Part shown: piece by piece, positions 36,619 through 61,731 of the stretch
Layout: every line of letters begins with the position of its first letter
Numbering within the stretch: the stretch's first letter is position 1
Assembly (NCBI GenBank): GCA_002163975.1
Contig: CP019636.1
Coordinates: 1,055,001-1,119,000 of the forward strand
Reading direction: 5' to 3'
Length of the DNA stretch: 64,000 nt
From: Nostocales cyanobacterium HT-58-2
Lineage (GTDB): Bacteria > Cyanobacteriota > Cyanobacteriia > Cyanobacteriales > Nostocaceae
Program-made: the position numbers and the translations under genes
The notes under the pieces: model-generated
Database searches by the model: none
Told to the model about the DNA's origin: nothing
What the model saw: only the letters and a program-made list of their open reading frames with translations

Positions 36619-36652
36619 AGATATATTGTACAGCATTTGACGTACAAATACT

Positions 36653-43540: not shown

Positions 43541-43628
43541 AGTAATCATTTGAATTAAAGATTTGAAACTTTGTCTTGCTTGACTTGACTAAGCTATTTT
43601 TTTAAAGTACTGTATCGAGGAGCAGAGC

Positions 43629-44993
43629 ATGAGTATAGTTAACGTATTAAACAAGAAAACTACAGATCTTAATATTTCTGGCGACAAACATAAGAAGCAT
43701 CTTCAAGTCATTCAAAAAACATATCAGAACAACATAGAATCTGACTACACAGAGAAGATAGAAGCTTTAGGTAAAAACTTTGACTACAGCACCAATAGTA
43801 ATCATTTCTGGGGCGATCGCCAGCTTTCTACATTATATGGTTCTCCTCTTTACGAACAAGCTTCTCATGCACAAAAGCTAGCTCTTAACCATCTTTATTG
43901 GGTAGGACAGTACCAACATACTGCATCCGCAGAAGCAAACACCATGCTCTACAATCAAATTACATCCGGTGTTTTTGCTCACGTTGGTGGATATGAAACT
44001 CTTTGCCAGGAATTAGATTTTGAAACGACTCAAGAACGTCATCATATCAATACTTTCCATAAAATTGGTTATAAAACAAAAATTGCTTTACTGGGCAAAG
44101 AATCCTTTGGTAATTCTCTACATAAAAAGTTAAATCATCAAACTCAGAATAACTTACTGCAAAAATTTCGAGAACTGCATAATAAAGAATCAATACAAGA
44201 TTTCACCTTTCGCTTTCTCACGAAATTGATGCATCAAGGTAAAGAAAACTACTATTCTGAGTACTTGAAACAGAAAAGTAACTCAATTCCGACTGCAACT
44301 GGTGGATTAGCTGGAGTAACAGCATCTCCATCCGTATTTAAATACTTGAGTTTGAATTGGGGTAGTTCTCCCTTTTTAGCTGCTCAGTATTACTCGGCGC
44401 GGATGGTTGCAAATATGTCATTAAAAACATATGAGTACCACTACTACAAACACTTCAGGGAGCTAGAGAAAAAGGGTGAGTTTATCCCCACTCCAATAGC
44501 TGTGTCTTATTATCACTTGTTGGATGAATCCTTTCATACCACAATGTCTCAGACTATTGCCCAAGAGGTATATAAGGATTTCCCGAAGCCAACAACGTAC
44601 GAGAAACTTCTATCTAATGTAATTATCTTGTTGTTACAACGAGGTCTTTTGAGTGGATTGTCTGCTGCCTTACCTGCTACATTTCGGGATGATGTCAATT
44701 TTATACCTTCGTATTACCGTCTGCTGACTTCGCCTCTATTTAATCAGATGCATCAGCAAGATGCACTTCATTGGATGAAAAAGTGCTTGTGTGAAGAACA
44801 CGAGGGCTTCTATGTCAATCTGAAATATCATCAAAGCCTCCTGAATGATTTGAGACGCTTCTTTGACCGTTTAGAATACCTATGGCCAGTTAACCGTAAA
44901 ATGCGCTTAATGGCTGAAGGTGGTTCGATAGAAAAGGCAATCAAACGTAATCAAATAGCCTTCAAGCAATTTGTTACTTCTGTTACTGCCTAG
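43629..44993 (+). CDS. CylC/AurF-like di-iron (dimetal-carboxylate) enzyme, possible fatty-acyl halogenase
   Basis: A 454-aa ferritin-like protein. Two metal motifs fit the AurF pattern E-X(28-37)-(D/Q)E-X2-H: Glu in SAEANTML with QERHH 32 residues later, and Glu in TYEYHYY with DESFH 29 residues later. CylC-type enzymes halogenate unactivated carbons of ACP-bound fatty acyl chains, and CylC is found with FAAL and ACP as here. I favour that family, but AurF-type oxygenation cannot be excluded. GAGGAG before the ATG is a good ribosome binding site. It directly precedes the first PKS gene. Confidence 0.75.
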   Translation: MSIVNVLNKKTTDLNISGDKHKKHLQVIQKTYQNNIESDYTEKIEALGKNFDYSTNSNHFWGDRQLSTLYGSPLYEQASHAQKLALNHLYWVGQYQHTASAEANTMLYNQITSGVFAHVGGYETLCQELDFETTQERHHINTFHKIGYKTKIALLGKESFGNSLHKKLNHQTQNNLLQKFRELHNKESIQDFTFRFLTKLMHQGKENYYSEYLKQKSNSIPTATGGLAGVTASPSVFKYLSLNWGSSPFLAAQYYSARMVANMSLKTYEYHYYKHFRELEKKGEFIPTPIAVSYYHLLDESFHTTMSQTIAQEVYKDFPKPTTYEKLLSNVIILLLQRGLLSGLSAALPATFRDDVNFIPSYYRLLTSPLFNQMHQQDALHWMKKCLCEEHEGFYVNLKYHQSLLNDLRRFFDRLEYLWPVNRKMRLMAEGGSIEKAIKRNQIAFKQFVTSVTA

Positions 44994-45025
44994 AACAGTT
45001 GCACACCTTTTTTGCAGCAATAAAT

Positions 45026-48000
45026 ATGAGTGGTGATAACTTAGTCATGGAACCCATAGCTATTGTTGGTATTGGCTGTCGCTTTCCTGGCGCTAACAGT
45101 CCAGAGGCTTTCTGGCATATTTTACGTAATGGCATTGATGCTATATCTGAAGTCCCTAAAGAGCGATGGGATGTAAATAGCTTTTACAATCCCAAACCTG
45201 CCACACCTGGCAAGATGAGTACTCGTTATGGTGGATTTATCAAAGAAGTAGATAGTTTTGATCCAGCCTTTTTTGGCATTTCGCCTCGTGAGGCTGAACG
45301 CATGGATCCTCAGCAGAGGGTAGTACTCAAAGTTGCTTGGGAGGCTTTGGAAAATGCCGGAATAATGCCTTCTAACCTCTCTGGTAGTCAAACAGGAGTG
45401 TTTATTGGAATTGGCAACTATGATTATGGAATTGTCATTTCCAAAGATTTAGACCGCATCAATGCCTATGATGGCACGGGTAATACACTTGGTGTTGCTG
45501 CAAATCGCCTGTCTTATCTGCTCAATCTGCGAGGACCAAGTTTAGCAATTGAGACATCCTGTTCTTCATCACTAGTGGCAATACATTTAGCTTGTCACAG
45601 TCTGCAAAACGCCGAGTCTGATTTGTGCTTGGTTGGAGCAGTTAGCTTAATGTTGTCGCCACAACAAACCATTATTTACTCCCAAGCTCGGATGATGGCT
45701 TCCAATGGTCGTTGTAAGACCTTTGATGCTAGTGCTGATGGTTATGTTCGCGGCGAAGGATGTGGAATTGTTGTCCTCAAGCGTCTGAGCGATGCGATTA
45801 GAGATGGCGATCGCATTCAAGCAGTCATCCGAGGTACGGCAATTAATCAAGATGGACTGAGTAATGGTTTGACTGCTCCTAATGGACCTTCACAACAGGC
45901 TGTGATTCGCCAAGCTTTAGAGAATGCAGGCGTTGAGCCAGCACAAATTAGCTATGTTGAAGCACATGGAACTGGTACATCTTTGGGAGATCCAATTGAA
46001 GTCAGGTCTTTAAAAGCTGTACTAATGCAAGGACGCAATGCTGATCAGCCTTGTTTAATTGGTTCAGTGAAGACAAATATTGGTCATTTGGAAGCTGCGG
46101 CTGGCATAGCTAGTTTACTTAAGGTAGTTCTGGCACTACAACACAAACAAATTCCGGCACACTTGCATCTTAAACAGTTGAATCCATACATTTCCTTGGC
46201 TGAGACACCTTTTGCTATCCCCACAGAACTTCAGCCTTGGATTGTGAATACAGGAACTCGTTTGGCAGGTATTAGTTCTTTTGGTTTTGGAGGTACTAAT
46301 GCTCACATCATTGTTGAGGAAGCACCTTTACATTTACAAATCCAAAATTCAAAAGATAGCATTGAACGTCCTTTGCATTTGTTGAGTCTGTCTGCAAAAA
46401 GTGAGCAGGCTTTGCAAGATTTGGTTCAGCGCTATGGAGATTTTCTGTCAAGTCATCCAGAATTGTCTCTGGCAGATATTTGCTTTACTGCCAGTACCGG
46501 GCGATCGCATTTTGACTACCGCCTTGGTGTAACTGCCCAATCTGTCAAGGAATTACAAGAGCAGTTGAGTGCTTTTGTTGCTGGACAGCAACCTCGTGAA
46601 TTAGTCACTGGTCAATTGGCTAGCCGCAAACAACTAAAGACAGCCTTTTTGTTTACTGGGCAGGGTTCTCAGTATATAGAAATGGGGCGTGAGTTGTACG
46701 AAACACAGCCCACTTTCCGTAAAACGTTACAGCAGTGTGATGAAATTTTATGTTCTTATCTTAACAAATCACTGCTAGATGTAATTTATCCCAACCATCA
46801 TGACACAGGTGATTTAATAGATGAAACTGCTTATACTCAACCAGCACTGTTTGCTGTGGAATATGCCTTATGCAAACTCTGGCAGTCTTGGGGTATTGCA
46901 CCTTCTGTGGTGATGGGGCATAGTGTTGGGGAATATGTTGCTGCTTGTGTAGCAGGCGTATTCAGCCTAGAAGATGGATTGAAGTTAATTGCTGCACGGG
47001 GACGGCTGATGCAAGCCCTGCCTGCTAATGGAATGATGGCAGCAGTCATGGCTAGCCCAGAACAAATAAGAGAACATATTGAAGCCTACAAAGGTAATAT
47101 TGCGATCGCAGCTATCAATGGATCGCGGAGTGTAGTGATTTCTGGTCAACGGCAAGCGATAGAAACATTGTGCCAATCGCTAGCCATAGATGGAGTGAAA
47201 ACAAAACCATTAACGGTATCTCATGCCTTCCACTCCCCCTTAATGACACCCATGATGGAGGAATTTGCAGCAGTTGCTAAGACCATTAACTACTCTGTTC
47301 CTCAAATTAAGTTAATTTCTAACATTACTGGCAAACTTATTAGCCAAGAAGTAGCTAGTCTTGAATACTGGTGTAATCATGTCCTACAACCTGTACTGTT
47401 TGCTGAGGGAATGCAGACTTTAGTACAGCAAAAGTGTGATGTGTTATTGGAAATTGGACCTAAACCAATATTATTGGGTATGGGCAAGCAGTGTCTGTCT
47501 GATACTGAACTAAAACAAATGGTATGGTTGCCTAGTTTACGCCCAGGACAATCTGATTGGCAGCAATTACTCCAGAGCTTAGCAAAAATGTATGTGCAAG
47601 GAGTGGAAATAGACTGGAAAGGATTTGACCAAGATTATATCCGTCAGCGTGTCCTATTACCTACATATCCCTTTCAAGAGCAACGTTACTGGGTGGAAAT
47701 TGGAGATCATCAATCTGTTGAGAAGCAAGTAATTTCTCCAAATACCTTACAAACTCCATTGTTGCGTCAGCTACAACAAGGAGAAATTCAACAGCTAACA
47801 GAACAAGTTAGTAAAACGGCGAGTTTATCTGCTGACGAACAAAAATTTTTACCGAAGTTGTTAGAAGTCTTGGCAAAGCAGCACAAGCAGCAATCAATCG
47901 CCGCCTCAATTCAAGATTGGTTTTACAAAATTGAATGGCAACCCAAGCCAAGACAAATTACAGTAGTTGACAAAAAGCCACAAATTGGTAACTGGTTGAT

Positions 48001-49846
48001 TCTGGCTGACATGAAAGGAGTGGGACAAACTCTTGCTAAACACCTGCAAAAACAAGGTAATTCTTGTATTTTGGTTTATCCAGGAGAATCTTATCAATCA
48101 AAGGGAAATTCTACTTGGGTGATCAATCCTACAAATACAGAAGATTTTCAGCATTTACTAAATGAAATTAGTGCAATTAGCCAAACTCAGTTACAAGGTG
48201 TAATTCACTTGTGGAATTTAGATACAGCCACATCGGAGTTAACAGTAGCAGAGTTAGAAAAGTCCCAAATGTTAGGATGTGGCAGTGTCTTGTCTCTGGT
48301 GCAGGCTCTGACTCAACACAGCGAGATTGATTTACCCCGTCTGTGGTTAGTGACGCGAGGCGCACAGCCAGTAGAAACTTTACCAGATGTTACCCAAGCA
48401 TCGCTATGGGGGATGGGTAAGGTAGTGGCTCTTGAGTATCCAGAACTCTTAGGTGGCATGGTGGATTTATCTTCTGAGCCAATCGCAGAGGAAATATCCT
48501 TATTATCGTCAGAAATTGCCGATGCTCAGGGAGAAGACAATTTTGTATATCGTGGCAAACGGCGTTATGTAGCTCGTTTGGTGCGAAAACAAATACCAGC
48601 CACCGTAGAAAGTTGTTCAATATCACCGGATAGCACTTACTTAATTACGGGTGGATTGGGCGCGTTAGGGCTAAAGGCAGCTCAGTGGTTAGTGGAACAG
48701 GGAGCTAAACAACTGGTGCTGACTGGACGTAGACAGCCAACTGCTGAAGCACAAACAGCAATCACTCACCTAGAAAAGATGGGAGCTAAAGTGCTGGCAG
48801 CTCAAGCCGATATTACCCAAGAGCAAGATTTGTTGCACTTATTAAAACAAGTGCAGGCAACAATGCCACCTTTACGTGGTATCATCCATGCAGCAGGAAT
48901 TGTCGAATATAAAACTTTGCCATCTCTGCAATGGCAATCTCTAGAGGCAGTATTACGTCCTAAAGTTATCGGCACTTGGCTTTTACATGAATTCACCCAA
49001 AATATCCAACTCGACTTCTTTGTGGTCTTCTCTTCTATTGCCTCTGTATGGGGTTCTAAAGGACAAGCTCATTACGCTGCTGCCAATGCCTTTTTAGATA
49101 GTTTTGCTCACTATCGCCAAGGACAGGGAATGCCTACTTTAGGTGTGAACTGGGGACCGTGGGGCGGTGGTGGTATGGCTTCTGAGGAAGCGCAAAGCTG
49201 GTTAACTCGTACAGGAATAGGCGTATTGCAGCCAGAACAAGCGCTGACTGCGTTGGGGCTCCTGCTAGGCTCAAATACCGTGCAGGCAACTGTAGCTCAG
49301 GTAGATTGGAAGCTGTTTAAGGGGTTATATGAGGCTAGAGGGCGGCGAGCCTTACTTGAGGAAATGCAAGTGCAAGCCTCAGCTAACAAGCAGCAGTCAA
49401 CTGTTACATCAGCACTGGTAACACAGTTACAAGCAGTTCCAGTTAGCGATGCAAGAGCGATGTTAACTGCTTATCTCCAGTCAGCAGTTGGTAAGGTATT
49501 AGGCTTTGAAGCGTCACAGTTACCTAACCCACAACAAGGCTTTTTTGAGATGGGTATGGATTCGCTGATGGCAATTGATTTGAAATCTCGACTGGATGAA
49601 AGCTTGGGAACAACATTACCCTCAACAATTACATTTGAGTGTCCCACAATTGCCGATTTGGTGAAATATTTGGGTCGAGAGATTTTAGGCTGGGAAAATA
49701 GCAGTGTCAGCAATGTAATAAGTTCATCAGATGAAGAAGTACGGGCTGCAACGATTGAAGAAATTCAGCAACTCACGACAGAAGCAGTTGAAGCTTTAAT
49801 TGCAGAGGAATTGGCAGGGTTAGAATCTTTACTGCAAAGGACTTGA
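45026..49846 (+). CDS. Type I polyketide synthase module KS-AT-KR-ACP (first extension)
   Basis: About 1606 residues. KS: Cys in ETSCSSSLVA (about 179), EAHGTGTSLGDP and NIGHLEAAAG. AT: GHSVGEYV (about 631) and HAFHSPL (about 732), the malonyl-CoA type. KR: TGGLGALGL (about 1205) and the Ser-Tyr-Asn set (FSSIAS, HYAAAN). ACP: GMDSLMAI (Ser about 1512). There is no DH or ER, so the beta-hydroxyl is kept. KR1 lacks the LDD motif of B-type KRs (HAAGIVEYK). ATG at 45026 is chosen over a TTG at 44999. The C-terminal helix (EELAGLESLLQR) and the coiled coil at the start of the next protein probably dock. It should elongate the ACP-bound acyl chain by one malonyl unit. Confidence 0.93.
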   Translation: MSGDNLVMEPIAIVGIGCRFPGANSPEAFWHILRNGIDAISEVPKERWDVNSFYNPKPATPGKMSTRYGGFIKEVDSFDPAFFGISPREAERMDPQQRVVLKVAWEALENAGIMPSNLSGSQTGVFIGIGNYDYGIVISKDLDRINAYDGTGNTLGVAANRLSYLLNLRGPSLAIETSCSSSLVAIHLACHSLQNAESDLCLVGAVSLMLSPQQTIIYSQARMMASNGRCKTFDASADGYVRGEGCGIVVLKRLSDAIRDGDRIQAVIRGTAINQDGLSNGLTAPNGPSQQAVIRQALENAGVEPAQISYVEAHGTGTSLGDPIEVRSLKAVLMQGRNADQPCLIGSVKTNIGHLEAAAGIASLLKVVLALQHKQIPAHLHLKQLNPYISLAETPFAIPTELQPWIVNTGTRLAGISSFGFGGTNAHIIVEEAPLHLQIQNSKDSIERPLHLLSLSAKSEQALQDLVQRYGDFLSSHPELSLADICFTASTGRSHFDYRLGVTAQSVKELQEQLSAFVAGQQPRELVTGQLASRKQLKTAFLFTGQGSQYIEMGRELYETQPTFRKTLQQCDEILCSYLNKSLLDVIYPNHHDTGDLIDETAYTQPALFAVEYALCKLWQSWGIAPSVVMGHSVGEYVAACVAGVFSLEDGLKLIAARGRLMQALPANGMMAAVMASPEQIREHIEAYKGNIAIAAINGSRSVVISGQRQAIETLCQSLAIDGVKTKPLTVSHAFHSPLMTPMMEEFAAVAKTINYSVPQIKLISNITGKLISQEVASLEYWCNHVLQPVLFAEGMQTLVQQKCDVLLEIGPKPILLGMGKQCLSDTELKQMVWLPSLRPGQSDWQQLLQSLAKMYVQGVEIDWKGFDQDYIRQRVLLPTYPFQEQRYWVEIGDHQSVEKQVISPNTLQTPLLRQLQQGEIQQLTEQVSKTASLSADEQKFLPKLLEVLAKQHKQQSIAASIQDWFYKIEWQPKPRQITVVDKKPQIGNWLILADMKGVGQTLAKHLQKQGNSCILVYPGESYQSKGNSTWVINPTNTEDFQHLLNEISAISQTQLQGVIHLWNLDTATSELTVAELEKSQMLGCGSVLSLVQALTQHSEIDLPRLWLVTRGAQPVETLPDVTQASLWGMGKVVALEYPELLGGMVDLSSEPIAEEISLLSSEIADAQGEDNFVYRGKRRYVARLVRKQIPATVESCSISPDSTYLITGGLGALGLKAAQWLVEQGAKQLVLTGRRQPTAEAQTAITHLEKMGAKVLAAQADITQEQDLLHLLKQVQATMPPLRGIIHAAGIVEYKTLPSLQWQSLEAVLRPKVIGTWLLHEFTQNIQLDFFVVFSSIASVWGSKGQAHYAAANAFLDSFAHYRQGQGMPTLGVNWGPWGGGGMASEEAQSWLTRTGIGVLQPEQALTALGLLLGSNTVQATVAQVDWKLFKGLYEARGRRALLEEMQVQASANKQQSTVTSALVTQLQAVPVSDARAMLTAYLQSAVGKVLGFEASQLPNPQQGFFEMGMDSLMAIDLKSRLDESLGTTLPSTITFECPTIADLVKYLGREILGWENSSVSNVISSSDEEVRAATIEEIQQLTTEAVEALIAEELAGLESLLQRT

Positions 49847-49847: not shown

Positions 49848-52800
49848 ATGGGTGAGCATTCTCTAAAGGTAAACCAGTTAAATTCATTGCAGCGCTTGCT
49901 TTTAACATTAAAGGAAGCACGCGCTAAACTGGAAGCACTAGAGCGCTCTAAAGCAGAGCCGATTGCTATCATTGGTACATCTTGCCGATTCCCAGGTGGG
50001 GCTAATGATCCAGAAGCTTTTTGGCAGCTGCTGACAAATGGCGTAGATGCGATCACGCAAATACCAAGTGATCGGTGGGATGTTGATGCCTACTACGATC
50101 CCAATCCAGATACTCCAGGCAAAATGTATACTCGCTACGGGGGATTTTTGCAGCAAGTAGATAAATTTGATGCTCAATTTTTCGGCATCTCTCCTCGCGA
50201 AGCTGTAAAACTTGACCCCCAGCAGCGCTTGTTATTGGAAGTGACTTGGGAAGCCTTAGAAAATGCAGGTTTAGTTACAAACGAGCAAGCAGCTAGCCAA
50301 ATGGGGGTTTTTGTCGGAGTAACGACAAATGACTACGCGCGTTTGTTGACATCTTATGGGGATCTCGACCAAATCGATGCTTATTACCTGACAGGTAATC
50401 CCCTAAATGCGATCGCTGGACGTTTGTCATACACTTTGGGGTTACAAGGACCTTGTATGGCGATTGATACAGCTTGTTCGTCTTCTTTGGTAGCTGTTCA
50501 TACAGCTTGCCAAAGTCTGCGGAATGGAGAATGCACCCATGCTTTAGTAGGTGGAGTTAACCTGATTCTCTCACCAGAAAACAACGTGGCACTTTCCAAA
50601 GCCAAAATGCTTTCTGCTGATGGTCGCTGCAAAACCTTCGATGCGTCGGCAGATGGAATTGTCAGAGGTGAGGGCTGTGGGATTATAGTACTCAAGCGCC
50701 TTAGTGATGCGATCGCTGATAGAGATAATATCCTCGCTTTGATTCGCGGGTCTGCTGTTAATCAAGATGGTGCTAGTAGTGGTTTTACCGTTCCTAATAA
50801 AGCGGCTCAGGAAGTTTTACTCCGCCAAGCTTTAGCTAGGGCAAGGGTTGAACCATCAGAGGTAGACTATGTAGAAGCTCATGGCACAGGTACTCCCTTA
50901 GGAGATCCTATTGAAATTAGAGCATTGGCGGCTGTGTTTGGTGAAGGGCGATCGCCAGAAAATCCTCTCAAAGTTGGTTCGGTAAAAACTAATATTGGAC
51001 ACCTAGAATCAGCTGCTGGAATTGCCAGTTTAATTAAAGTCATATTATCTCTACAAAATCAGCAGATTCCTCCACAATTACACTTACAACAACTCAACCC
51101 CTATATTAACTGGAATGAACTGCCTATATCTGTAACTACAAGTCCAACAGCTTGGTCTATTGGGCAAAAGCGGCGAATCGCTGGAGTTAGTGCTTTTGGA
51201 GCTAGCGGTACTAATGCTCATGTCGTGTTAGAAGAAGTACCTCAAGAAATTAAAAATACTCCTTCCTTACAGGATGCTCCACGAACGGAGAAGCAGGCTA
51301 CAAAATCAAAAATTCAAAATATAGAGCGTCCTTTACATCTGCTCACTTTATCAGCAAAAACACAATCAGCTTTAGAGGAATTAGCTAAAAAATATGAACA
51401 ACATTTGGCTGCCAATCCCATAGCTATAGAAGATATCTGCTTTAGTGCCAATACTGGACGCGGTGATTTCAAACATCGATTAGCTGTTCTGGCATCTTCA
51501 ACAACAGAAGTTTTGCAAAAGTTGGCTAATTTTACTCAAGGACAAGAAGTTGCAGGAGTCATTCGCAATCACGTGACAGAAGCAACGCCTCCAAAGGTGG
51601 CTTTTCTTTTCACAGGTCAAGGTTCACAGTATGTGGGCATGGGGAGACAACTCTACGAAACTCAGCCAACTTTCCGTGCAGCACTCGACCTCTGCGATGA
51701 AATCTTGCGAGCGCAATTTGATTTGCCTTTGCTCAAAGTTCTTTATCCTTCAACAGAAGATGTTAGTCATTCCCAGATTTTAGACGCAACAGCTTATACT
51801 CAACCCACTTTATTTGCCCTAGAATACGCCCTCTTCCAATTATGGAAATCTTGGGGAGTAGAGCCATCGGTAGTCATGGGGCATAGTGTCGGTGAATATG
51901 TTGCTGCTTGTGTAGCCGGAGTTTTTAGCTTAGAAGATGCTTTAAAACTGATTGCTACACGGGGACATTTAATGCAAGCTCTGGCTGAAAATGGGTCAAT
52001 GGTGGCAGTGCTAGCAGAGCCAGAGCAAGTAATGGCTGCGATAGAACCTTTTAGCGAAGAAGTATCAATTGCTGCTTACAACGGTCCTCGCAGCTTAGTT
52101 CTTTCTGGTAAACAAGAAGCTATTAAATCAGTCTGCGCTGTTTTGGCAACGCAGGGAGCAAAAATAAAAGAACTGCAAGTTTCTCACGCTTTTCACTCTC
52201 CTCTCATGCAGCCCATGCTGGCAAAATTTCGACAAGTAGCAAGTGAGATTGCCTTCTCCATTCCACAATTAAAACTCATTTCCAATTTGACTGGAGAACT
52301 GGCGACAGATGAAATAGCTACTCCTGAATATTGGTGTCGTCATATTCTCAGCCCCGTGCAATTTGCCGCTGGTATGAAAACGCTGTTACAAGAATATGAA
52401 GTGTTTTTGGAAATCGGTTCCAAACCTACTCTGTTAGGAATGGGGCGCCAGTGTGTGCTAGAGGAGGGACAACAAGTTTGGCTTCCTAGCCTGCGCCCTG
52501 GACTGGGAGATTGGCAACAACTCCTGCAAAGTTTAGGAGAGTTGCACGTCCGGGGAGTCACAGTAAACTGGAAGAGTTTTGATCAAGACTATCAGCGTCG
52601 TCGGGTATGTTTACCAACCTATCCATTTCAGCGGGAACGGTTTTGGATTGAAACGGCGGATAAAGTTCCATTACCGAAAATTCTCAATCCACAACCACAG
52701 GGTAAAAATACACGCAATTTCCCAGATACAAGTAATTGGTTATACCAAATTGCTTGGCAACGTCAAGCTCTGAATGTTAACAATCAATCTCCAGAAGCAC

Positions 52801-54629
52801 AAAAACCAGGTAGTTGGTTAATCTTCGCTGATGAAGGCGGTATGGGGCAGAAGTTAGCTCATCTGCTAGAGGAACGGGGAGAAAATTGTACTATCGTTAC
52901 TGCTGGGGCGGGGTACGAAAGATTAAAACAAGAGCATTATCAAATTTACTCTTCTAATCCAGAAGATTTTCAACGCTTGCTACAGAATATAGGGCAATGT
53001 CAACCACCATTACGGGGTGTTGTTTACTTGTGGGGTTTTAATGAAGCATCAGTGCTGAACCCTCCTCAGGAACAACACTGTTGTAATGCGCTATATTTAA
53101 TACAAGCCCTGGTGCAAACTAAGTGGTCTGAATCATCTCGGTTGTGGTTAGTGACTCAGGGCGCTCAAGCAGTAGGCACATTATTACCACTGCAAGTGCA
53201 ACAGTCTGCTTTGTGGGGTTTGGGAAGGGTCATTGCTCTGGAGCATCCAGAATTCCGTTGTTCCCGCTTGGATTTAGATCCATCCGCAGCACAAAATCAA
53301 GTATCAAATCTCTTGACAGAATTATTGGCACAAGACAAAGAAGACCAAGTAGCATATCGTAATGGTGCTCGCTATGTCGCTCGCTTAGTACAGCATCTCT
53401 CTAATGAATCTGCAATTAACCACACAAAGGTAGTACACGAAAACAACAGCTATCTGATCACTGGCGGTTTAGGTGCGTTGGGATTAAAGCTAGCTCAGTG
53501 GCTGGTGCAGAAAGGAGCGCAGCATCTTGTACTGACCGGACGGCATGGACCTTCCCAAGCAGCGCAAGGGGAAATTAGCAAGCTTGAGCAGGCGGGAGCG
53601 CAAATACTAGTTGTTGCAGCTGATGTCTCAAAGCAAGACGATGTTAATAGATTGTTGGCAGAAGTAAAAAACTCCATGCCTTCCTTGCGAGGTATTTTCC
53701 ATGCGGCTGGAGTCTTGCAGGATGGGATGTTACTAGGGCAAACTAAAGAAAGTTTTACCAAGGTGATGGCTCCTAAAGTAGCCGGAGCATGGAATTTACA
53801 TACCTTGACTCAAGATTTAGAGCTAGACTTTTTCGTTTGCTTCTCATCTGTATCTGCCTTACTCGGTTCTCCCGGACAAGGTAACTATGCAGCTGCAAAT
53901 GCTTTCATGGATGCACTCGCACATCACCGCCGTGCATTAGGATTACCAGGAGTCAGCATCAACTGGGGTCCTTGGAGAGATGCTGGCATGGCAGATGCTT
54001 TGAGCAGTCGAGAACAAGCGCGTTGGGTAGAGCAGGGTATAAGTACAATTTCCCTGGAGCCAGGATTGCAGATATTGGAGGATATTTTAAATCAGGACGT
54101 TGCTCAGGTAGGTGTGCTATCAGTAAATTGGTCTAAGTTCTTGAGACAACTGCCACAAAATTTAGAGTTTCCCTTCCTTGAGGTATTTGCTTCACAGCTA
54201 GAACCAGCACAAGCTATTAAATCTGAGTTTCTCCAACAACTAGAAGCAGCTGGAGTTAAAGAAAAGCGATCGCTATTATTAACTCACGTCCGCTCCCTAA
54301 TTGCCAAAGTCCTAGATTTGAAATCATCTGAAGAAATAGACCCCTACCAAGGTTTTACCGATTTAGGTATGGATTCGCTGATGGCTGTGGAATTAAAAAA
54401 TCGTCTCCAAACTAGCTTGGAGTGTTCAGTACCCGCATCCTTAGTTTTTGACTATCCCACAGTGGCAGCGTTAGTTGACTATTTAGCTGGACAAATACTG
54501 GCAACAGATTCTGAAGCGAGCGAAAACACAAATGTAGAGACAATTATGCTGGATTCAAATTTTGACGATTTGTCAGACAGCGAGGCTGAAGCATTACTAC
54601 TTAGCAAATTGAAAACTATGAGGTATTGA
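49848..54629 (+). CDS. Type I polyketide synthase module KS-AT-KR-ACP (second extension)
   Basis: 1593 residues. An N-terminal docking coiled coil (LQRLLLTLKEARAKLEALER) precedes the KS (Cys in DTACSSSLVA about 209; EAHGTGTPLGDP; NIGHLESAAG). AT: GHSVGEYV (about 678), HAFHSPL (about 779), malonyl type. KR: TGGLGALGL (about 1204), FSSVSA and NYAAAN; the loop HAAGVLQDG is close to the B-type LDD motif, hinting at a D-configured alcohol. ACP: GMDSLMAV (about 1508). The start is 1 nt after the previous stop, so the two are coupled. Together with module 1 it predicts a 3,5-dihydroxyacyl chain. Confidence 0.93.
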   Translation: MGEHSLKVNQLNSLQRLLLTLKEARAKLEALERSKAEPIAIIGTSCRFPGGANDPEAFWQLLTNGVDAITQIPSDRWDVDAYYDPNPDTPGKMYTRYGGFLQQVDKFDAQFFGISPREAVKLDPQQRLLLEVTWEALENAGLVTNEQAASQMGVFVGVTTNDYARLLTSYGDLDQIDAYYLTGNPLNAIAGRLSYTLGLQGPCMAIDTACSSSLVAVHTACQSLRNGECTHALVGGVNLILSPENNVALSKAKMLSADGRCKTFDASADGIVRGEGCGIIVLKRLSDAIADRDNILALIRGSAVNQDGASSGFTVPNKAAQEVLLRQALARARVEPSEVDYVEAHGTGTPLGDPIEIRALAAVFGEGRSPENPLKVGSVKTNIGHLESAAGIASLIKVILSLQNQQIPPQLHLQQLNPYINWNELPISVTTSPTAWSIGQKRRIAGVSAFGASGTNAHVVLEEVPQEIKNTPSLQDAPRTEKQATKSKIQNIERPLHLLTLSAKTQSALEELAKKYEQHLAANPIAIEDICFSANTGRGDFKHRLAVLASSTTEVLQKLANFTQGQEVAGVIRNHVTEATPPKVAFLFTGQGSQYVGMGRQLYETQPTFRAALDLCDEILRAQFDLPLLKVLYPSTEDVSHSQILDATAYTQPTLFALEYALFQLWKSWGVEPSVVMGHSVGEYVAACVAGVFSLEDALKLIATRGHLMQALAENGSMVAVLAEPEQVMAAIEPFSEEVSIAAYNGPRSLVLSGKQEAIKSVCAVLATQGAKIKELQVSHAFHSPLMQPMLAKFRQVASEIAFSIPQLKLISNLTGELATDEIATPEYWCRHILSPVQFAAGMKTLLQEYEVFLEIGSKPTLLGMGRQCVLEEGQQVWLPSLRPGLGDWQQLLQSLGELHVRGVTVNWKSFDQDYQRRRVCLPTYPFQRERFWIETADKVPLPKILNPQPQGKNTRNFPDTSNWLYQIAWQRQALNVNNQSPEAQKPGSWLIFADEGGMGQKLAHLLEERGENCTIVTAGAGYERLKQEHYQIYSSNPEDFQRLLQNIGQCQPPLRGVVYLWGFNEASVLNPPQEQHCCNALYLIQALVQTKWSESSRLWLVTQGAQAVGTLLPLQVQQSALWGLGRVIALEHPEFRCSRLDLDPSAAQNQVSNLLTELLAQDKEDQVAYRNGARYVARLVQHLSNESAINHTKVVHENNSYLITGGLGALGLKLAQWLVQKGAQHLVLTGRHGPSQAAQGEISKLEQAGAQILVVAADVSKQDDVNRLLAEVKNSMPSLRGIFHAAGVLQDGMLLGQTKESFTKVMAPKVAGAWNLHTLTQDLELDFFVCFSSVSALLGSPGQGNYAAANAFMDALAHHRRALGLPGVSINWGPWRDAGMADALSSREQARWVEQGISTISLEPGLQILEDILNQDVAQVGVLSVNWSKFLRQLPQNLEFPFLEVFASQLEPAQAIKSEFLQQLEAAGVKEKRSLLLTHVRSLIAKVLDLKSSEEIDPYQGFTDLGMDSLMAVELKNRLQTSLECSVPASLVFDYPTVAALVDYLAGQILATDSEASENTNVETIMLDSNFDDLSDSEAEALLLSKLKTMRY

Positions 54630-54722: not shown

Positions 54723-57710
54723 ATGAGTGTGAATTCCGCCCAAGCACAGTCTCCATCTCCAATCAAGCAGGCGCTTCGAGCCATAGAAGTCTTAGAAGCC
54801 AAGCTTGATGCACTTAAGTATGCTCAACGCGAACCAATTGCCATAATTGGCACGGGTTGCCGATTTCCTGGAGGAGCAGAAAATCCAGAGGCATTTTGGC
54901 GGCTGTTGCGCGACGGGGTTGACGCAATTACTGAAGTCCCTGCTGATCGATGGAATCTAGAAAAATACTATGATCCTGACCCAGATACTCCTGGCAAAGT
55001 GTGTACTAGTGAAGGAGGATTTTTGCAGGAAGTAGATACCTTTAACCCTGAGTTTTTCGGGATTTCAGCGCGGGAAGCAGTCAGTATAGATCCGCAGCAA
55101 CGGCTTTTGCTAGAGGTCAGCTGGGAAGCTTTAGAAAATGCTAACCAAGTACCTGACAATTTACATAACAGTTCTGCAGGAGTATTTATCGGCATTTACT
55201 TAAATGATTACAGCAAAGTAATGTTGTCGCTAGGGGACGTATCGCAGATTGATGCTTTTTCTGCGGTTGGCAATTCTTTGAGTGTAGCTGCTGGACGTTT
55301 GTCATATTTTTTAGGGCTAAAAGGTCCCAGTATGGCGATTGATACATCCTGTTCTTCTTCATTAGTATCAGTACATTTGGCTTGTCAGAGTTTACGCTTG
55401 AGAGAGTGTCATTTGGCTTTAGCTGGCGGAGTTGGTTTAAATCTCACGCCGGACACCAGCATTGCTCTCTCTAAAACACGGATGCTTAACCCTGATGGGC
55501 GTTGTAAAACCTTTGATGCTGCTGCTAATGGTTTTGTGAAAGGCGAAGGGTGTGGCGTTGTCGTCCTCAAGCGTCTCTCGGATGCTTTGGCTGACAGAGA
55601 CAATATCTTAGCTTTGATTCGGGGTTCTGCTGTTAATCATAATGGTCGCAGTAGTAGCTTAATTTCCCCCAACGGATTATCTCAGCAAGCCGTGATTCGC
55701 CAAGCCTTAGAAAATGGCGGCGTGGAGCCAACCGAGATTGACTATGTAGAAGTTCAAGGTACGAGCACATCTGTAGGCGAACCGATAGAGGTTGGGGCTT
55801 TAGAGGCAGTGTATTGCAAGAGCCGTTCCCAAGATAAACCTTTGATAATTGGTTCGGTAAAAACCAATATTGGGCATCTAGAACCAGCTTCTGGGATTGC
55901 CAGCCTAATTAAGGTGGTGCTGGCTCTGCAACATGGCGAAATTCCAGCACATTTGCACTTTAAACAGCCTAATCCTTACATTAATTGGCATGAATTACCA
56001 GTGCAAGTTGCCGCACAGCGTATGCCTTGGCCGATAACAGAAAAGCGGCGGCTGGCGGGAGTAAGCGCTTTTGGCTTTAGTGGTACTAACGCTCACGTTA
56101 TTCTAGAAGAGGCTCCGGTTTCTCAGCCAGTGGAGAAAACAATAGAGCGTCCCCTGCACCTGTTGACTTTATCAGCTAAGACAGACGAGGCACTTGTCCA
56201 GTTAGCTGAACGTTATGAGAGGCACTTAGCCAATAATTCAGACTTAGCTATAGGAGATATCTGCTTTACAGCTAATAGTGGGCGATCGCACTTTCAGCAT
56301 CGGTTGAGTGTGGTAGCATCTTCATCTAGAGAACTCTATAAAAAGTTAGCAGCTTTCAGGAGCCAGCAACAACCAGTAGGATTATTCTGCGGAAAGATAA
56401 CAGATTCTCCTAAAATCGTCTTCCTTTTCCCCGATGTGGGTTCAGAATATATTGGCATGGGTCGTCAACTCTACGAAACCCAGCCAAAGTTTCGTCAAGC
56501 TTTCGACCGTTGTAATGAAATTCTGCATTCCTATTTAAAATGCTCTTTGGCTGAGGTTTTGTATCCCGAATCAGCAACAAGTTTCCATATACATGAAGCT
56601 GCTTACAGCCAACCCGCCTTATTTGCTCTTGAATATGCCTTATTTCAGTTATGGAAATCTTGGGGTGTAGAACCGACCGCAGTCATGGGTTACGGTGTCG
56701 GGGAATATGTTGCAGCCTGTGCCGCTGAAGTTTTCAGCTTGGAAGATAGCTTAAAGTTGGTTGCGGAACGGGGACGCTTGACGCAAGCCTTACTCCAAAC
56801 AGGGGAAATGGTGGAAGTCTTCGCCTTTGGAAACCAAGCAATCCTCAAAGAAGTCACCTACTCTCAACCACAAATTCCTCTAATTTCTCATTCGGCTGAC
56901 GAAATAGCTTCCCCTTTATATTGGGTTCGTCAAGTGCAGCAACCTGTGGAGTTTGCTAAAAGCATAGATACTTTAACTCAACAAGGTTACGGAATATTTG
57001 TGGAAATTGGGACACCGACTTTAGGAGAAATGGGTCGTAATTACTCGTCTGATAAAGTTTGGCTTTCTACTCTGCATTCCGATAAAGATGATTGGCAACA
57101 TATCCTTGAGAGTTTGGCATCTTTATATGTGCGTGGCGTAAAAATAGACTGGTTAGGTTTTGACCAAGACTACTTGCATCAACGTGTGGAATTGCCAACT
57201 TACCCTTGGCAACGCAAACGCTACTGGTTTGATCCTAATAACAATGGATATAAAAAAGCTGAGATTTTGAGTCAAGCAAATTACCAACAACTGAATGAGC
57301 AGTTAGAAAAAACTGGGGAACTCTCTAAAGAAGAGTTAAATTTGCTCCCTAAATTGCTTGGGTTATTAACAAAGCAACCTCAGCAGTCAGAAACCATTAG
57401 CACAATTAAACCAAAAGCTGTTGCAATAGATAAGATCAATGCTCTGACAGCAGCAGATATTCAAGCATGGCTCACTAACCAAATTGCCAAAGATTTGGGA
57501 GTCAAACCCGATGAGATAGATGTTCGAGTACCTTTCGACAGTTATGGTCTTGATTCAGTCCTAGCGATCGCAATTGCTAGTGCTGGCAAACAATTTCTTG
57601 GACTTGATATATCTCCACTTCTGCTAGTGCATTATCCCACTATTGAGTCACTCTCACAGCACTTAGCTAAAGAATTAGAAGCTTCTGAATTAGAAATATT
57701 TGAAATTTAA
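54723..57710 (+). CDS. Degenerate PKS module: KS lacking a catalytic His, dead AT, intact ACP
   Basis: 995 residues. The KS keeps its Cys (DTSCSSSLVS, about 210) and second His (NIGHLEPASG), but the HGTGT motif reads VQGTSTSVG: the decarboxylation His is Gln at residue 345. The AT has lost its Ser and His (GHSVGE became GYGVGE; Gly at about 658), the GQGSQ loop (now PDVGSEY) and about 90 residues including the HAFHS motif. The ACP is intact (YGLDSVLAIA, Ser about 944). There is no KR or TE. This should be a non-elongating module that accepts the chain and holds it for another enzyme. It ends in an acidic helix (ELEASELEIFEI) just before the TubC-docked protein. The frame is clean, so these look like selected changes rather than decay. 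Confidence 0.88.
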   Translation: MSVNSAQAQSPSPIKQALRAIEVLEAKLDALKYAQREPIAIIGTGCRFPGGAENPEAFWRLLRDGVDAITEVPADRWNLEKYYDPDPDTPGKVCTSEGGFLQEVDTFNPEFFGISAREAVSIDPQQRLLLEVSWEALENANQVPDNLHNSSAGVFIGIYLNDYSKVMLSLGDVSQIDAFSAVGNSLSVAAGRLSYFLGLKGPSMAIDTSCSSSLVSVHLACQSLRLRECHLALAGGVGLNLTPDTSIALSKTRMLNPDGRCKTFDAAANGFVKGEGCGVVVLKRLSDALADRDNILALIRGSAVNHNGRSSSLISPNGLSQQAVIRQALENGGVEPTEIDYVEVQGTSTSVGEPIEVGALEAVYCKSRSQDKPLIIGSVKTNIGHLEPASGIASLIKVVLALQHGEIPAHLHFKQPNPYINWHELPVQVAAQRMPWPITEKRRLAGVSAFGFSGTNAHVILEEAPVSQPVEKTIERPLHLLTLSAKTDEALVQLAERYERHLANNSDLAIGDICFTANSGRSHFQHRLSVVASSSRELYKKLAAFRSQQQPVGLFCGKITDSPKIVFLFPDVGSEYIGMGRQLYETQPKFRQAFDRCNEILHSYLKCSLAEVLYPESATSFHIHEAAYSQPALFALEYALFQLWKSWGVEPTAVMGYGVGEYVAACAAEVFSLEDSLKLVAERGRLTQALLQTGEMVEVFAFGNQAILKEVTYSQPQIPLISHSADEIASPLYWVRQVQQPVEFAKSIDTLTQQGYGIFVEIGTPTLGEMGRNYSSDKVWLSTLHSDKDDWQHILESLASLYVRGVKIDWLGFDQDYLHQRVELPTYPWQRKRYWFDPNNNGYKKAEILSQANYQQLNEQLEKTGELSKEELNLLPKLLGLLTKQPQQSETISTIKPKAVAIDKINALTAADIQAWLTNQIAKDLGVKPDEIDVRVPFDSYGLDSVLAIAIASAGKQFLGLDISPLLLVHYPTIESLSQHLAKELEASELEIFEI

Positions 57711-57755: not shown

Positions 57756-59624
57756 ATGAATGTATCCGAATTTTTAGAAAATTTAACTCAACAAGGCATT
57801 CAATTGTGGGCTGATAATGGTAAACTCAAAGTTAATTCTCCCAAGGGACTGCTAACAGAAGAACAACGCACAGAGTTAGCTAAATACAAAACAGAAATTC
57901 TCGCTTTTCTGCAAAAAGATAATGAAATTGCAATCGGTAATACTGTAAGTAAAACTCAAGACCTCAGCTTGCAGACGATTGGATGCTTAATAGGAGGTTT
58001 TTGTCGTAAAGTTACAGGCTTTCATCCTCCCATTATTGAGCCAAATCTTATGGCTAAGAAGCTAAAAGTTACCTTTAGACCTTTACCAAATGGATACAAA
58101 GAAACAGAAATTTTGAAGTTTAGAGAAGAGTTAACAAATAAATTGCAAACCAGTGGAGTTCAAATTCTATCTTGGGAGGAAGCAACTAAAGAAGTTCAGT
58201 ATGAAATTATTATCCCTTTCACAAATTGGACAAAAACTATTACTGCAAATGTTGTAAAAGCGGGTGTTAGTGCTGTAGTTGATGTTGAAAAGCATCCTTC
58301 CTTCCTGGGGAAAGTGAAGACAATTTTAGTAGAGTTATTCTATCAATTGTATTCTCACTTTATTTTACAAAATCGCCCGCTATCTGTTTCTAAAATTATG
58401 CAGTTTATCAGTTGGGCTGAAGAAAATATTCAATCTCTAGAAGATCCAACAAATACTCAAGTTATCGTTTTAACCAAACTTAATCAAGAATTTGTTAATC
58501 TAGACATACCTTATCAAAAGAAAATATCTGTTGGTATCAATACCCTTATCAGAACATTTTCGGAGATTGTAGTTGGAGTTTCTGATACTAAGATTTCTAT
58601 CTTAAACATGAATCTTTCTGATTCAGTGTTCCCACTAGAATCAGTTGATGAATTCGTTAATAACTCTTTAATTCCTAAAATTTATGTACCAATTCTGCCA
58701 CTACCTCTTAGCCGATTTGAGATTGGTGAGTATGACCCAAAAGCATCTATTTATGCAAATCAACTAGTCAAATTAGGTAAAGAATTAGCATCAACGGGTT
58801 TATTACCTTCTGGTTTTAAAATCGACGATGTGATCAAAAGAAAGTCACACCGTGATATTGTAGACTGGATGGCAAATGGCAGAACAGGTGTTTCTTATGG
58901 TTTTGTTGCCTATGCTGAACCACCCCAATATGTAGGTGCTGTAGAAATATCTGAAAGCGATTGGGAAAGCCTTTCTCCCATTGAAGGATTCAGTTGTGAT
59001 GAACTGCGTCAAAATGAAATCGGTAGGAGATATATCAAAACTAAGATTGGAGAAAAAAACGTATTTAAGCAAGTACCAGATATCTGGGTTGTTAGTTCTC
59101 GTTCAGGCGCAAATAAAACAAATCTTAATTTAGAAACTGACGTGCTGAGGCTAGGACTGCAAGATAGGCTATTACTCCAATTGCCAAAAGATATCAATCT
59201 AGTAATGAGCGATATCAAACCTTCTTATGATATTTATGTCATGGTGGCGATCGCTCTTGCTGCTGCATTGTATGCACCAGACCTAATTAAAAATGGTACA
59301 GCAATGGTTCATTTTCACGGCTATCCATCAAACCAGTGGTTTGAACCAAATAACGAGTATTGTACAGGTGTAAACAATCCCTCCGTTCCTTGTGGAACCT
59401 ATGAATCAGGAGTTTTCAATTTCCTCGGTATACAAAATTTAGTCAACAAATATGGCAACAATATTGCCATAGCTAGTCTGATTGAACCAGATCATGGCAC
59501 AAATATCATCGCCTCTGACTGGGAGTATTTACTTGCCAGAATCAAAACAGGAGTTGAACAGGGTCAAATTGACTTGGGTGGCAAGCATTTCTCTTCCCTC
59601 AAAAAAAATATTGCTGTTCGCTGA
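57756..59624 (+). CDS. Unrecognised 622-aa protein with N-terminal TubC-type docking domain
   Basis: Residues 1-55 (VSEFLENLTQQGIQLWADNG, then LKVNSPKGLLTEEQRTELAK) match the TubC N-terminal docking domain used to receive partners on PKS/NRPS lines. Residues about 70-622 match nothing I know. There are no A, C, KS or TE motifs. Notable conserved-looking stretches are MVHFHGYPSNQWFEPNNEYC, VNNPSVPCGTYESG and LIEPDHGTNIIAS, rich in His, Asp and Cys. Position after a non-elongating, TE-less module suggests a tailoring or chain-release role on ACP3. This is inference. Confidence 0.7.
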   Translation: MNVSEFLENLTQQGIQLWADNGKLKVNSPKGLLTEEQRTELAKYKTEILAFLQKDNEIAIGNTVSKTQDLSLQTIGCLIGGFCRKVTGFHPPIIEPNLMAKKLKVTFRPLPNGYKETEILKFREELTNKLQTSGVQILSWEEATKEVQYEIIIPFTNWTKTITANVVKAGVSAVVDVEKHPSFLGKVKTILVELFYQLYSHFILQNRPLSVSKIMQFISWAEENIQSLEDPTNTQVIVLTKLNQEFVNLDIPYQKKISVGINTLIRTFSEIVVGVSDTKISILNMNLSDSVFPLESVDEFVNNSLIPKIYVPILPLPLSRFEIGEYDPKASIYANQLVKLGKELASTGLLPSGFKIDDVIKRKSHRDIVDWMANGRTGVSYGFVAYAEPPQYVGAVEISESDWESLSPIEGFSCDELRQNEIGRRYIKTKIGEKNVFKQVPDIWVVSSRSGANKTNLNLETDVLRLGLQDRLLLQLPKDINLVMSDIKPSYDIYVMVAIALAAALYAPDLIKNGTAMVHFHGYPSNQWFEPNNEYCTGVNNPSVPCGTYESGVFNFLGIQNLVNKYGNNIAIASLIEPDHGTNIIASDWEYLLARIKTGVEQGQIDLGGKHFSSLKKNIAVR

Positions 59625-59662: not shown

Positions 59663-60544
59663 ATGACAAATATTGCAGGTCAGACAGTACTTTTGACAGG
59701 TGCTTCACGCGGTATTGGAGCTTTTATTGCTCGTGCTTTAGCAAAAGAAAAAGCAACTGTAATTGGTGTAGCGCGATCGCAACAAGGACTGGATCAATTG
59801 TCTGCCGAAGTCCAAGCTTTAGGAGGTTGCTGGTTAGGCATTAAATATGACCTCAGTCACATCAAAGATTTGCCAAACCTCGTTGACCAAATTGAGCAAA
59901 TTGCAGGTCATATTGATATTTTAATTAACAATGCTGGTATAGAAATTTACAAAAACTTTCAAGATTACAGCACCTTAGAGATACAGTCAGTATTAACAAT
60001 TAATCTGCTATCTGGAATGGAATTAACTCGATTGTTGCTGCCAACGATGTTACGCCAAAAGAGAGGCCATATTATTAATATCGCTTCACTATCTGCCAAA
60101 AAAGGAAATGCCCATAACAGTATTTATTGTGCGAGTAAAGCTGGTTTACTCATGTGGAGTGATTCTCTCCGGCAAGAATTGGCAGGTACTGGTGTAAACG
60201 TTTCAGTGATTTGTCCAGGTTATATCTGTGAATCGGGAATGTTTGCTGATACTGGCATACCTGCCCCAACTTTAGCAGGTACATCTAAGCCAACAGATGT
60301 AGCGATCGCCGTCATCCAAGCTATAAAGCAAAATCAGGCAGAGGTAATTGTTAATCAAGATTTAATTACAACAAATTTTACAAAAATTTTATTAGCAATT
60401 TGGCAAATATTTCCACGTTTTGGAGATAAATTTTATCAGTGGATTGGAGTAACAAAACTTAACCAAAAACGTGCTGCAAATCAAATGCCTGTTGTCTTTA
60501 AAACAATTGAGAACAGAACAATAGTTGGTTCTAAATCAGATTAA
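59663..60544 (+). CDS. Short-chain dehydrogenase/reductase
   Basis: A 293-aa classical SDR: TGASRGIG cofactor motif, INNAG, a Ser in NIASLSAKKG and the YCASK catalytic pair. The NADP preference cannot be fixed with confidence. A C-terminal hydrophobic stretch (TTNFTKILLAIWQIFPRFGD) may associate with membrane lipid, as in sphinganine- or fatty-ketone-type SDRs. A likely role is reduction of a keto group or oxidation of an alcohol on the cluster's lipid. Confidence 0.88.
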   Translation: MTNIAGQTVLLTGASRGIGAFIARALAKEKATVIGVARSQQGLDQLSAEVQALGGCWLGIKYDLSHIKDLPNLVDQIEQIAGHIDILINNAGIEIYKNFQDYSTLEIQSVLTINLLSGMELTRLLLPTMLRQKRGHIINIASLSAKKGNAHNSIYCASKAGLLMWSDSLRQELAGTGVNVSVICPGYICESGMFADTGIPAPTLAGTSKPTDVAIAVIQAIKQNQAEVIVNQDLITTNFTKILLAIWQIFPRFGDKFYQWIGVTKLNQKRAANQMPVVFKTIENRTIVGSKSD

Positions 60545-60579: not shown

Positions 60580-61731
60580 ATGATGAAGAAAGTATATCTA
60601 ATGATTTATGATGCTGGTGCAGGTCATCGCAGCACTGCTAATGCTTTGCAAAAAGTTATCGAGCAGCAAAAATTACCTTGGGAAGTTTATCTAGTCGAAG
60701 CTTTTAAAGAAATACTTGGCACTTCTACTTCTCAAAACTTTTACAATAATTATGTTCTGCAAAAAAATTGGGCAAAAATTATTAATGAACCACTATTAGT
60801 TCCTTTATTCAAATTACAAATACGCTTTTCTCATTCAGCTTGGTTAGCAAGTCTAAAAACATACTGGAAACAGCATAAACCCGATATGGTAGTTTCAGTA
60901 CAGCCATATCTTAATCGGGTGTTTTACGAAAGTCTGCAAATAGTATTACCAGATATTCCTTTTGTCACCTTGATAACTGATCATGCCGATTGTCCACCCC
61001 ATTTTTGGATTGAAAAGCAAGAACAGTTTTTAATTTGTCCCACGAAAAAAGCGGTTGAACAAGCAAAAAGCTTTGGTTATACACAAGAGCGATTATTCCG
61101 CACATCGGGAGTCATCATTCATCCTCGATTTTATGAACCAATTTTATGCGATCGCCGTATTGAAAGGCAGCATTTAGGTTTAGACCCAGATTGTATGACT
61201 GGACTAGTGTTATTTGGGGGCAATGGTTCCAGAGTAATGTTAGAAATTGCCAAGTGTCTAGAGAGTTTTCAACAAAAACTACAACTCATCTTTATTTGCG
61301 GACGCAATGAAGAATTAGCCAAAGCTCTACGCGAAAGCCAAGTTCACCAAAAGAGGTTTGTCACCACCTTTACCCAAAACGTTCCTTATTACATGCATCT
61401 TGCTGATTTTTTCATTGGTAAACCAGGTCCCGGTAGTCTTAGTGAAGCGTTAGTGATGAAGCTACCAGTGATTGTAGAACGTAATTTTTCCACCCTTATC
61501 CAAGAAAGATACAATGCTGATTGGGTTGAACAGCAACAAGTGGGTTTGGTCATCTCTAATTTTCGCAACATCGATAAGGCAGTGAAGAAGTTTCTAGAGC
61601 CGGAAAATTTTGCTCGCTACCGTGCCAATGTCGCTGCTGTCAACAATCGCGCCGTATTTGAAATTTCTGATATTTTGCAGAATATTCTCGCTAAGAGCTA
61701 CAACACAGCAGTGACAAAAGCAATGGCGTAG
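60580..61731 (+). CDS. MGDG-synthase-type glycosyltransferase (GT28)
   Basis: A 383-aa glycosyltransferase with the MGDG synthase/MurG-like double Rossmann fold: N-terminal DAGAGHRSTANAL (acceptor loop), a middle TDHADCPPHFW, and a donor site with GGNGSR and GKPGPGSLSEAL (nucleotide-sugar binding). Members transfer Glc or Gal to lipids. In this cluster it probably glycosylates the polyketide-lipid, so the end product may be a glycolipid. Starts at ATG 60580 or 60583. Confidence 0.88.
   Translation: MMKKVYLMIYDAGAGHRSTANALQKVIEQQKLPWEVYLVEAFKEILGTSTSQNFYNNYVLQKNWAKIINEPLLVPLFKLQIRFSHSAWLASLKTYWKQHKPDMVVSVQPYLNRVFYESLQIVLPDIPFVTLITDHADCPPHFWIEKQEQFLICPTKKAVEQAKSFGYTQERLFRTSGVIIHPRFYEPILCDRRIERQHLGLDPDCMTGLVLFGGNGSRVMLEIAKCLESFQQKLQLIFICGRNEELAKALRESQVHQKRFVTTFTQNVPYYMHLADFFIGKPGPGSLSEALVMKLPVIVERNFSTLIQERYNADWVEQQQVGLVISNFRNIDKAVKKFLEPENFARYRANVAAVNNRAVFEISDILQNILAKSYNTAVTKAMA

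Follow-up and report, generated by a model that had tools for sequence, protein, structure and literature searches.

The question raised by this locus is how a finished acyl chain leaves a modular polyketide synthase (PKS) that carries no recognizable release domain. The locus lies in a 64,000-nucleotide window (the whole stretch of DNA that was analysed) of Nostocales cyanobacterium HT-58-2 (contig CP019636.1, positions 1,055,001 to 1,119,000), and the gene in question encodes a 622-amino-acid protein, here named X622, at window positions 57756–59624 on the forward strand. A preliminary description made from the sequence had presented it as an orphan enzyme joined to a TubC docking segment, and as the best candidate for a new release or rearrangement activity. 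The best overall explanation, which we rate as somewhat short of probable, is that X622 is docked onto the last acyl carrier protein (ACP) of the synthase and off-loads the chain by an aldolase-like reaction that would leave one extra hydroxylated carbon on the product.

The X622 open reading frame (ORF) contains 622 codons and a stop, without internal stops; the upstream synthase gene, PKS3, ends 45 bases before it, and a short-chain dehydrogenase (SDR) gene begins 38 bases after it, followed by a glycosyltransferase gene (Table 1). Apart from TubC_N at the N-terminus, a Pfam scan at E≤1 gives only DUF1539 (E 0.22, short of its cut-off), the NCBIfam scan gives no row at E≤1, and comparison of the remaining body with PDB sequences and profiles provides no identification by sequence. 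The earlier reading of a 622-residue frame with a TubC segment, and of a body matching no known PKS or non-ribosomal peptide synthetase (NRPS) domain, is therefore confirmed, and none of these comparisons revealed an unrelated family.

Residues 1–57 are a TubC/beta-hairpin docking domain, on which Pfam, fold and profile agree: TubC_N (PF18563) matches residues 3–53 with E 1.5e-19 (70.3 bits against a cut-off of 26), the AerJ docking domain (PDB 8aqq) superimposes on the X622 model with Z 10.1 and a root-mean-square deviation (rmsd) of 1.4 over 56 residues, and the profile match has E 3.9e-11. The same Pfam domain is matched in all 21 family members scanned (E≤10, best 7.3e-21). Its probable partner is found on the neighbouring carrier protein. 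Among 96 relatives (L123 and L124 being one protein counted twice, and the window's own copy entering as L137, without room), an ACP is encoded upstream on the same strand in 90/90 with enough upstream sequence, at distances of up to 1.84 kb; the other six have no room. All 90 of these ACPs end in the tail [ED]x[FIL][EQH][ILF]-stop (like SESEIFEI-stop), and an additional partner ACP in L126 ends in FEV, outside the pattern. Among all mechanically called ORFs of at least 60 amino acids the tail pattern occurs in 95 of the 157 with an ACP hit, vs 2/3696 others, one of these two being the window's own PKS3; it is absent from the other ACPs of the window. The question whether X622 homologues lie near PKS/NRPS genes is thereby answered in the affirmative.

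Short C-terminal motifs on carrier proteins partner this type of docking domain, and in one solved complex the last five residues make the contact, as described in the available part of PMC9113145. The conserved ACP tail is thus probably the binding partner of the X622 docking domain, judging from the sequences, and we consider recruitment of X622 to the ACP through this pair to be very likely. The AerJ halogenase and other enzymes recruited through beta-hairpin docking domains share this N-terminal domain with X622 (8aqq); unlike the aldolase-like X622, none of those covered in the available part of PMC9113145 is an aldolase.

The catalytic assignment comes from structure prediction. In an AlphaFold2 model made without templates (predicted local distance difference test score, pLDDT, 72.6; predicted template modelling score, pTM, 0.76), structure comparison by VIA-align finds as top match L-fuculose-1-phosphate aldolase FucA (1e4b; Z 12.1, rmsd 3.8 over 175 residues, model residues 328–622), with the top FucA rows spanning Z 12.1–11.6. 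Of the 50 rows listed, 48 fall on model residues 324–622 and are mostly named aldolases, and two are docking domains; rhamnulose-1-phosphate aldolase, YgbL, AraD, APIP, POD and NovR are also included. The order of motifs, PSYD, then HFHG, then DHG, parallels PSSE73, H92/H94 and H155-G of FucA, whose H92, H94 and H155 we take to be zinc ligands. Accordingly placed in X622 are H519, H521 and H580, a predicted three-histidine metal-type site that is invariant in 97/97 aligned rows, and D492, an equally invariant acidic residue in the motif position of FucA E73, for which a catalytic role is predicted. The pattern P[ST][STY][DE]-x10-40-HxH-x35-90-HG is found in 100 of 1321 ORFs of at least 150 amino acids, all 100 being X622 relatives by BLAST; every full-length X622 has it, and it also describes E. 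coli FucA, AraD and RhaD. FucA and AraD thus share with X622 the predicted fold and the PSS[ED]/HxH/HG motif order, and AraD shares the Asp in place of Glu; unlike either, X622 also carries a docking domain and a Rossmann-like middle domain ahead of this fold, and its expected substrate is held on an ACP. We regard a class II aldolase-like fold for residues 327–622, as modelled, as likely. A match of the body to some known but unrelated family, which would have counted against the original idea, is absent at the sequence level. Because neither Pfam nor hhalign gives a significant match, we call X622 aldolase-like and keep it out of PF00596.

The description of the middle domain likewise comes from modelling. 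Modelled separately as residues 60–330 (pLDDT 77.0), it gives 11 rows of the CoaB/phosphopantothenoylcysteine synthetase type at Z 10.3–8.1, with the first unrelated row at Z 8.2; the best, 5int_A (Z 10.3, rmsd 3.7, 153 residues), is a weak match, and Foldseek has no row under E 0.005. The CoaB-type likeness of the predicted fold is suggestive only.

PKS3 is the synthase protein directly upstream of X622. In the ketosynthase (KS) of PKS3 the active-site cysteine is retained (DTSCSSS), EAHGTGT has become EVQGTST, and the histidine of HGTGT is replaced by Gln; in its acyltransferase (AT), GHSVGE has become GYGVGE, and Pfam covers just positions 1–132 of the 319-position AT profile. Because the KS histidine and the AT motif are lost, PKS3 looks non-elongating, as had been proposed. 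Pfam finds neither a thioesterase (TE) nor a reductase release domain in the three PKS proteins, which also upholds the earlier description of the upstream module as lacking a TE. Among the relatives a fused group likewise has KS motifs reading EVQGT or EVNGT beside X622, with the AT motif changed or missing. A second conserved tail, roughly ALLL(S/G)KLxxM(R/K)Y-stop, ends the elongating PKS before PKS3 (window PKS2, L021, L023, L096, L129 and others) and is probably a further docking element.

Table 1. Features of X622 and of its gene cluster (window coordinates). KR, ketoreductase; FAAL, fatty acyl-AMP ligase; GT, glycosyltransferase; MGDG, monogalactosyldiacylglycerol.
Feature	Coordinates	Strand	Basis or remarks
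FAAL	39895..41742	+	Pfam, NCBIfam
Free-standing ACP	41805..42122	+	sequence read by eye
ISAs1-family transposase gene, between free ACP and CylC-like gene	42232-43521	+	NCBIfam
CylC/AurF-like dimetal halogenase candidate	43629..44993	+	AurF row E 6e-4, 19.5 bits, below cut-off 29.6
PKS1, KS-AT-KR-ACP	44999..49846	+	Pfam
PKS2, KS-AT-KR-ACP	49848..54629	+	Pfam
PKS3, apparently non-elongating KS0-AT0-ACP	54723..57710	+	Pfam, motif reading
PKS3 motif EVQGTST	55749-55769	+	
PKS3 motif GYGVGEY	56688-56708	+	
PKS3 ACP serine motif	57546-57566	+	
C-terminal tail ELEASELEIFEI of PKS3, proposed docking-domain partner	57672..57707	+	tail comparison
X622, whole gene: docking, middle and class II aldolase-like domains	57756..59624	+	622 aa
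TubC/beta-hairpin docking domain, residues 1-57	57756..57926	+	Pfam, fold, profile
Middle domain, residues 70-326, Rossmann-like in model	57963..58733	+	nearest fold CoaB/phosphopantothenoylcysteine synthetase (weak)
Class II aldolase-like domain (predicted), residues 327-622	58734..59621	+	FucA 1e4b structure match, motif test
PSYD, residues 489-492, position of FucA PSSE (E73)/AraD PSSD	59220..59231	+	P489, S490, Y491, D492 each 97/97
HFHG, residues 519-522, position of FucA H92/H94	59310..59321	+	H519, H521 97/97
EPDHG, residues 577-581, H580 in position of FucA H155	59484..59498	+	H580 97/97
SDR, directly downstream of X622	59663..60544	+	adh_short E 2.5e-54
GT28/MGDG-synthase-like GT	60580..61731	+	Pfam

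The label of orphan does not hold: of 217 genomes in the family, 110 contain a full-length relative (E≤1e-100). One in-frame stop occurs in each of five match rows, and the copy in L066 is split. A search for distant or split versions across the phylum found matches in 32 of 386 sampled genomes (30 in the same family and two in the same order), all 34 match rows being essentially full length with no fragment or rearranged form in that sample. There are 119 confirmed X622 loci in named genomes; judged by title, all 80 listed are cyanobacterial. Within the sequence at hand, the 96 relatives divide into 48 hgl-type, 31 type I PKS and 17 unclassed loci, the window's copy falling in the last. In a quick midpoint-rooted tree of 97 rows (24 without a label, and L123/L124 again one protein counted twice) rows labelled type I fall into two clades (23 and 11 rows) and those labelled hgl into one (63 rows); since type I loci form two clades, the notion that X622 serves heterocyst-type glycolipids exclusively was dropped. 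An SDR gene lies next to X622 in 27 of the 30 type I loci with downstream room, and in 4/17 unclassed loci with such room.

A known product offers a frame for what X622 might do. Nostochloroside is a C21 chlorinated glycolipid made from palmitate, with a hydroxyl at C6, chlorine at C12 (palmitate C7) and a vicinal diol, and derives from a Nostoc punctiforme cluster (ngl/pks3) with FAAL, CylC- and CylK-type genes, KR, dehydratase (DH) and enoylreductase (ER) domains, type I PKS with an inactivated KS* and a GT; the authors suppose that the C21 chain arises by cleavage of a larger product, and the available part of their account names no enzyme for this step (PMC10849952). The window gene set resembles this cluster, with FAAL, a CylC candidate, type I PKS with a KS0, a GT and an SBBP protein downstream. 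The preliminary description had suspected an undescribed part of the pathway: the pathway around X622 is not entirely new, its genes resembling a published set, and it is the chain-length step that stands without an assigned enzyme in the available account. Loci L129/L130 (to which L140/L141 are similar by BLAST) contain FAAL, ACP, a CylC-like gene, KS-AT-KR-ACP, KS-AT-DH-ER-KR-ACP, KS0-ACP, X622, SDR, GT, two methyltransferases and an SBBP/RTX protein, which we interpret as a CylK homologue; the window differs in having two KR-only modules where L129 has KR and then DH-ER-KR. A CylK/BrtB-type identity for X622 itself was not retained, since a distinct gene encodes the SBBP beta-propeller protein.

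For an L129-type cluster the carbon count would run as follows: C16 plus two extensions gives C20, the C6 hydroxyl presumably stemming from the first KR and the reduced C4 from the second module, so that C2 would be the thioester carbon and C1 one extra carbon. Two extensions of palmitate reach only C20, which would leave one carbon for the step carried out by KS0-ACP, X622 and SDR. As both window modules are KR-only, a 1,2,4,6-oxygenated analogue is predicted; if palmitate-started, the window product would be a C21-type chlorinated glycoside oxygenated at C1, C2, C4 and C6. Addition of three carbons from dihydroxyacetone phosphate (DHAP; C16+2+3) would also yield C21 in one-module clusters, L021 for example, but would leave an oxygen at C3/C4, which nostochloroside appears to lack, and is retained only as a variant.

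We propose that X622 acts in trans to off-load the chain from a chlorinated-glycolipid PKS. The computation establishes the docking domain, the conserved tail, the lost motifs of the last module and the conserved gene order, to which are added the predicted aldolase-type fold and metal site. The docking domain would bind the ...ELEIFEI tail of the last ACP, on the non-elongating KS0-AT0 module that would hold the finished acyl chain. The zinc aldolase-like site would then form an enediolate from some small hydroxycarbonyl metabolite, with the acyl thioester as the electrophile, and the chain would be released as an alpha-hydroxy ketone keeping one new hydroxylated carbon (R-CO-CH2OH), with either decarboxylation of the donor or a second cleavage removing the rest of the donor. 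The neighbouring SDR would turn the alpha-hydroxy ketone into the 1,2-diol by reduction, and the GT would add the sugar. The aldolase-fold thiolase LsrF, which couples DHAP and acetyl-CoA, is a precedent for aldolase-type C-acylation with a thioester; unlike X622, it has a class I aldolase-type fold and uses CoA instead of an ACP. That X622 releases the chain in one way or another is reasonably probable, favoured by the absence of a TE or reductase from the three PKS proteins, the inert AT, the loss of the KS histidine in the fused group and the SDR next door in type I loci. Release with formation of a carbon–carbon bond and retention of one carbon is put forward tentatively; the donor, the bond formation and the single added carbon are inferred only. 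X622 accordingly keeps its standing as the best candidate for a release or rearrangement activity, as first proposed, the activity itself being a prediction.

A number of observations weigh against this explanation. In sequence terms, hhalign against 28 aligned class II aldolase sequences falls short of significance (P 0.047), and 5/60 block shuffles score at least as high as the real comparison; the Pfam Aldolase_II row (PF00596) is absent in 21/21 family members at E≤10; and X622 is not one of the two PF00596 hits in its own genome. Structurally, the best aldolase row in a Foldseek search with the X622 model has E 0.026, with none at E≤0.001, and model confidence is moderate (pLDDT 72.6) with a shallow family alignment (Neff about 2). 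The motif pattern was composed only once the match had been noticed, and FucA E73 is replaced by Asp, as in AraD. In loci where the ACP is free-standing, the KS retains the histidine, its motif being xxHAVGT (8 examples), and the AT motif is lost there too; a non-elongating KS is therefore not universal, and it is the inert AT that is general in the type I loci examined. An SDR gene is next to X622 in merely 4/47 hgl-type loci with downstream room. Finally, the donor in this scheme is hypothetical, and X622 is only presumed to be present in the N. punctiforme ngl cluster itself.

The same fold and motifs could serve cleavage, and X622 might act by retro-aldol reaction on a larger ACP-bound chain, in line with the cleavage proposed for nostochloroside in the available part of PMC10849952. 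Because PKS2 is KR-only, a beta-hydroxyacyl chain, the usual substrate for such a reaction, is expected on the last ACP of the window. No larger product is evident, however, since the last module before X622 seems unable to elongate; in L129 the module before KS0-ACP has DH and ER, so that no beta-hydroxyl is expected; and simple cleavage of a beta-hydroxyacyl chain takes off two carbons and leaves it even-numbered, for which reasons we consider retro-aldol cleavage unlikely. The three-histidine site could also bind iron, and X622 would then use the class II aldolase fold as a metal-dependent oxygenase, performing oxidative cleavage or hydroxylation in the manner of pyruvic oxime dioxygenase (POD) or NovR, both among the fold matches listed (8il8, Z 9.8; 9ryg, Z 9.7). 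The FucA rows score above these, and the invariant Asp after PSY occupies the position of the FucA Glu and AraD Asp, making an oxygenase a distinctly unlikely reading.

Two further proposals were weighed. Position after the last ACP of a synthase without a TE is what would be expected of a docking-tethered hydrolase or gatekeeper that frees the chain as an acid, the extra carbon then coming from another enzyme; yet what the catalytic part resembles among the listed fold matches is the class II aldolase type, not a hydrolase, and the metal-type motif is invariant, and we find this rather improbable. AraD and FucA act on sugar phosphates, and with GT and epimerase genes close by X622 might work on the sugar side, as a head-group aldolase or epimerase, with docking merely gathering the pathway. 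The retention of ACP and tail in all 90 relatives with room, hgl-type loci included, argues against this, and we hold it to be very improbable.

The gene run around X622 extends beyond the window. From about window position 61881 and past its end (L137:4182-6470) is a gene whose 763-aa product combines an NAD-dependent epimerase part with a D-arabinono-1,4-lactone-oxidase-type FAD part; this gene sits between two MGDG-like GT genes. About 9 kb beyond the window end, on the same strand, the run reaches a gene for an SBBP beta-propeller protein (L137:15310-17490) that is possibly a CylK homologue. The name CylC for the halogenase candidate depends on the sub-cut-off AurF row, the gene setting and the available part of PMC8406957. 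A repeat scan of 42123-43640 around the ISAs1 transposase gene found no convincing terminal repeats, and at 33277-36810 the minus strand carries two IS605 OrfB/TnpB-type genes with a phage-lysozyme-like gene between them.

Many X622 genes lie in a different setting. In L138:3245-18533, HglE-type (KS-AT-ACP-KR-DH), KS, PfaD and PapA-type domains are followed by an ACP and then X622, and no thioester reductase is present among the five proteins scanned there. The hgl-like islands of heterocystous cyanobacteria have unknown products, and their seven-gene definition, as given in the available text, names no X622-like protein, nor does the word aldolase occur in the main text (PMC11804610). Proteins with HglE-, HglC- and PfaD-type domains adjoin the ACP and X622 in L138, and the hgl-type X622 loci such as this one would appear to be the published islands (PMC11804610), in which ACP and X622 are a possible release device. 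The window cluster is unlike them, being a FAAL/type I PKS cluster; checked for HglE/HglC/PfaD-type genes, the window proteins scanned give no PfaD-type row and contain just modular type I PKS.

Polyketide chains are well known to be released by TEs, reductases and condensation-type domains. A class II aldolase-like enzyme in this role was not found in a limited literature search, which is a thin basis for calling it unreported, and we view as possible, though doubtful, a new kind of release in which a docked zinc aldolase-like enzyme uses an enediolate to make odd-chain 1,2-diol lipids, with the same pair at work in the hgl-like islands. The docking domain and the short ACP tail together form a pair of parts. 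If the proposal is true, the step that gives nostochlorosides their odd chain would have a candidate catalyst in X622, and so, perhaps, would chain release in the hgl-like islands.
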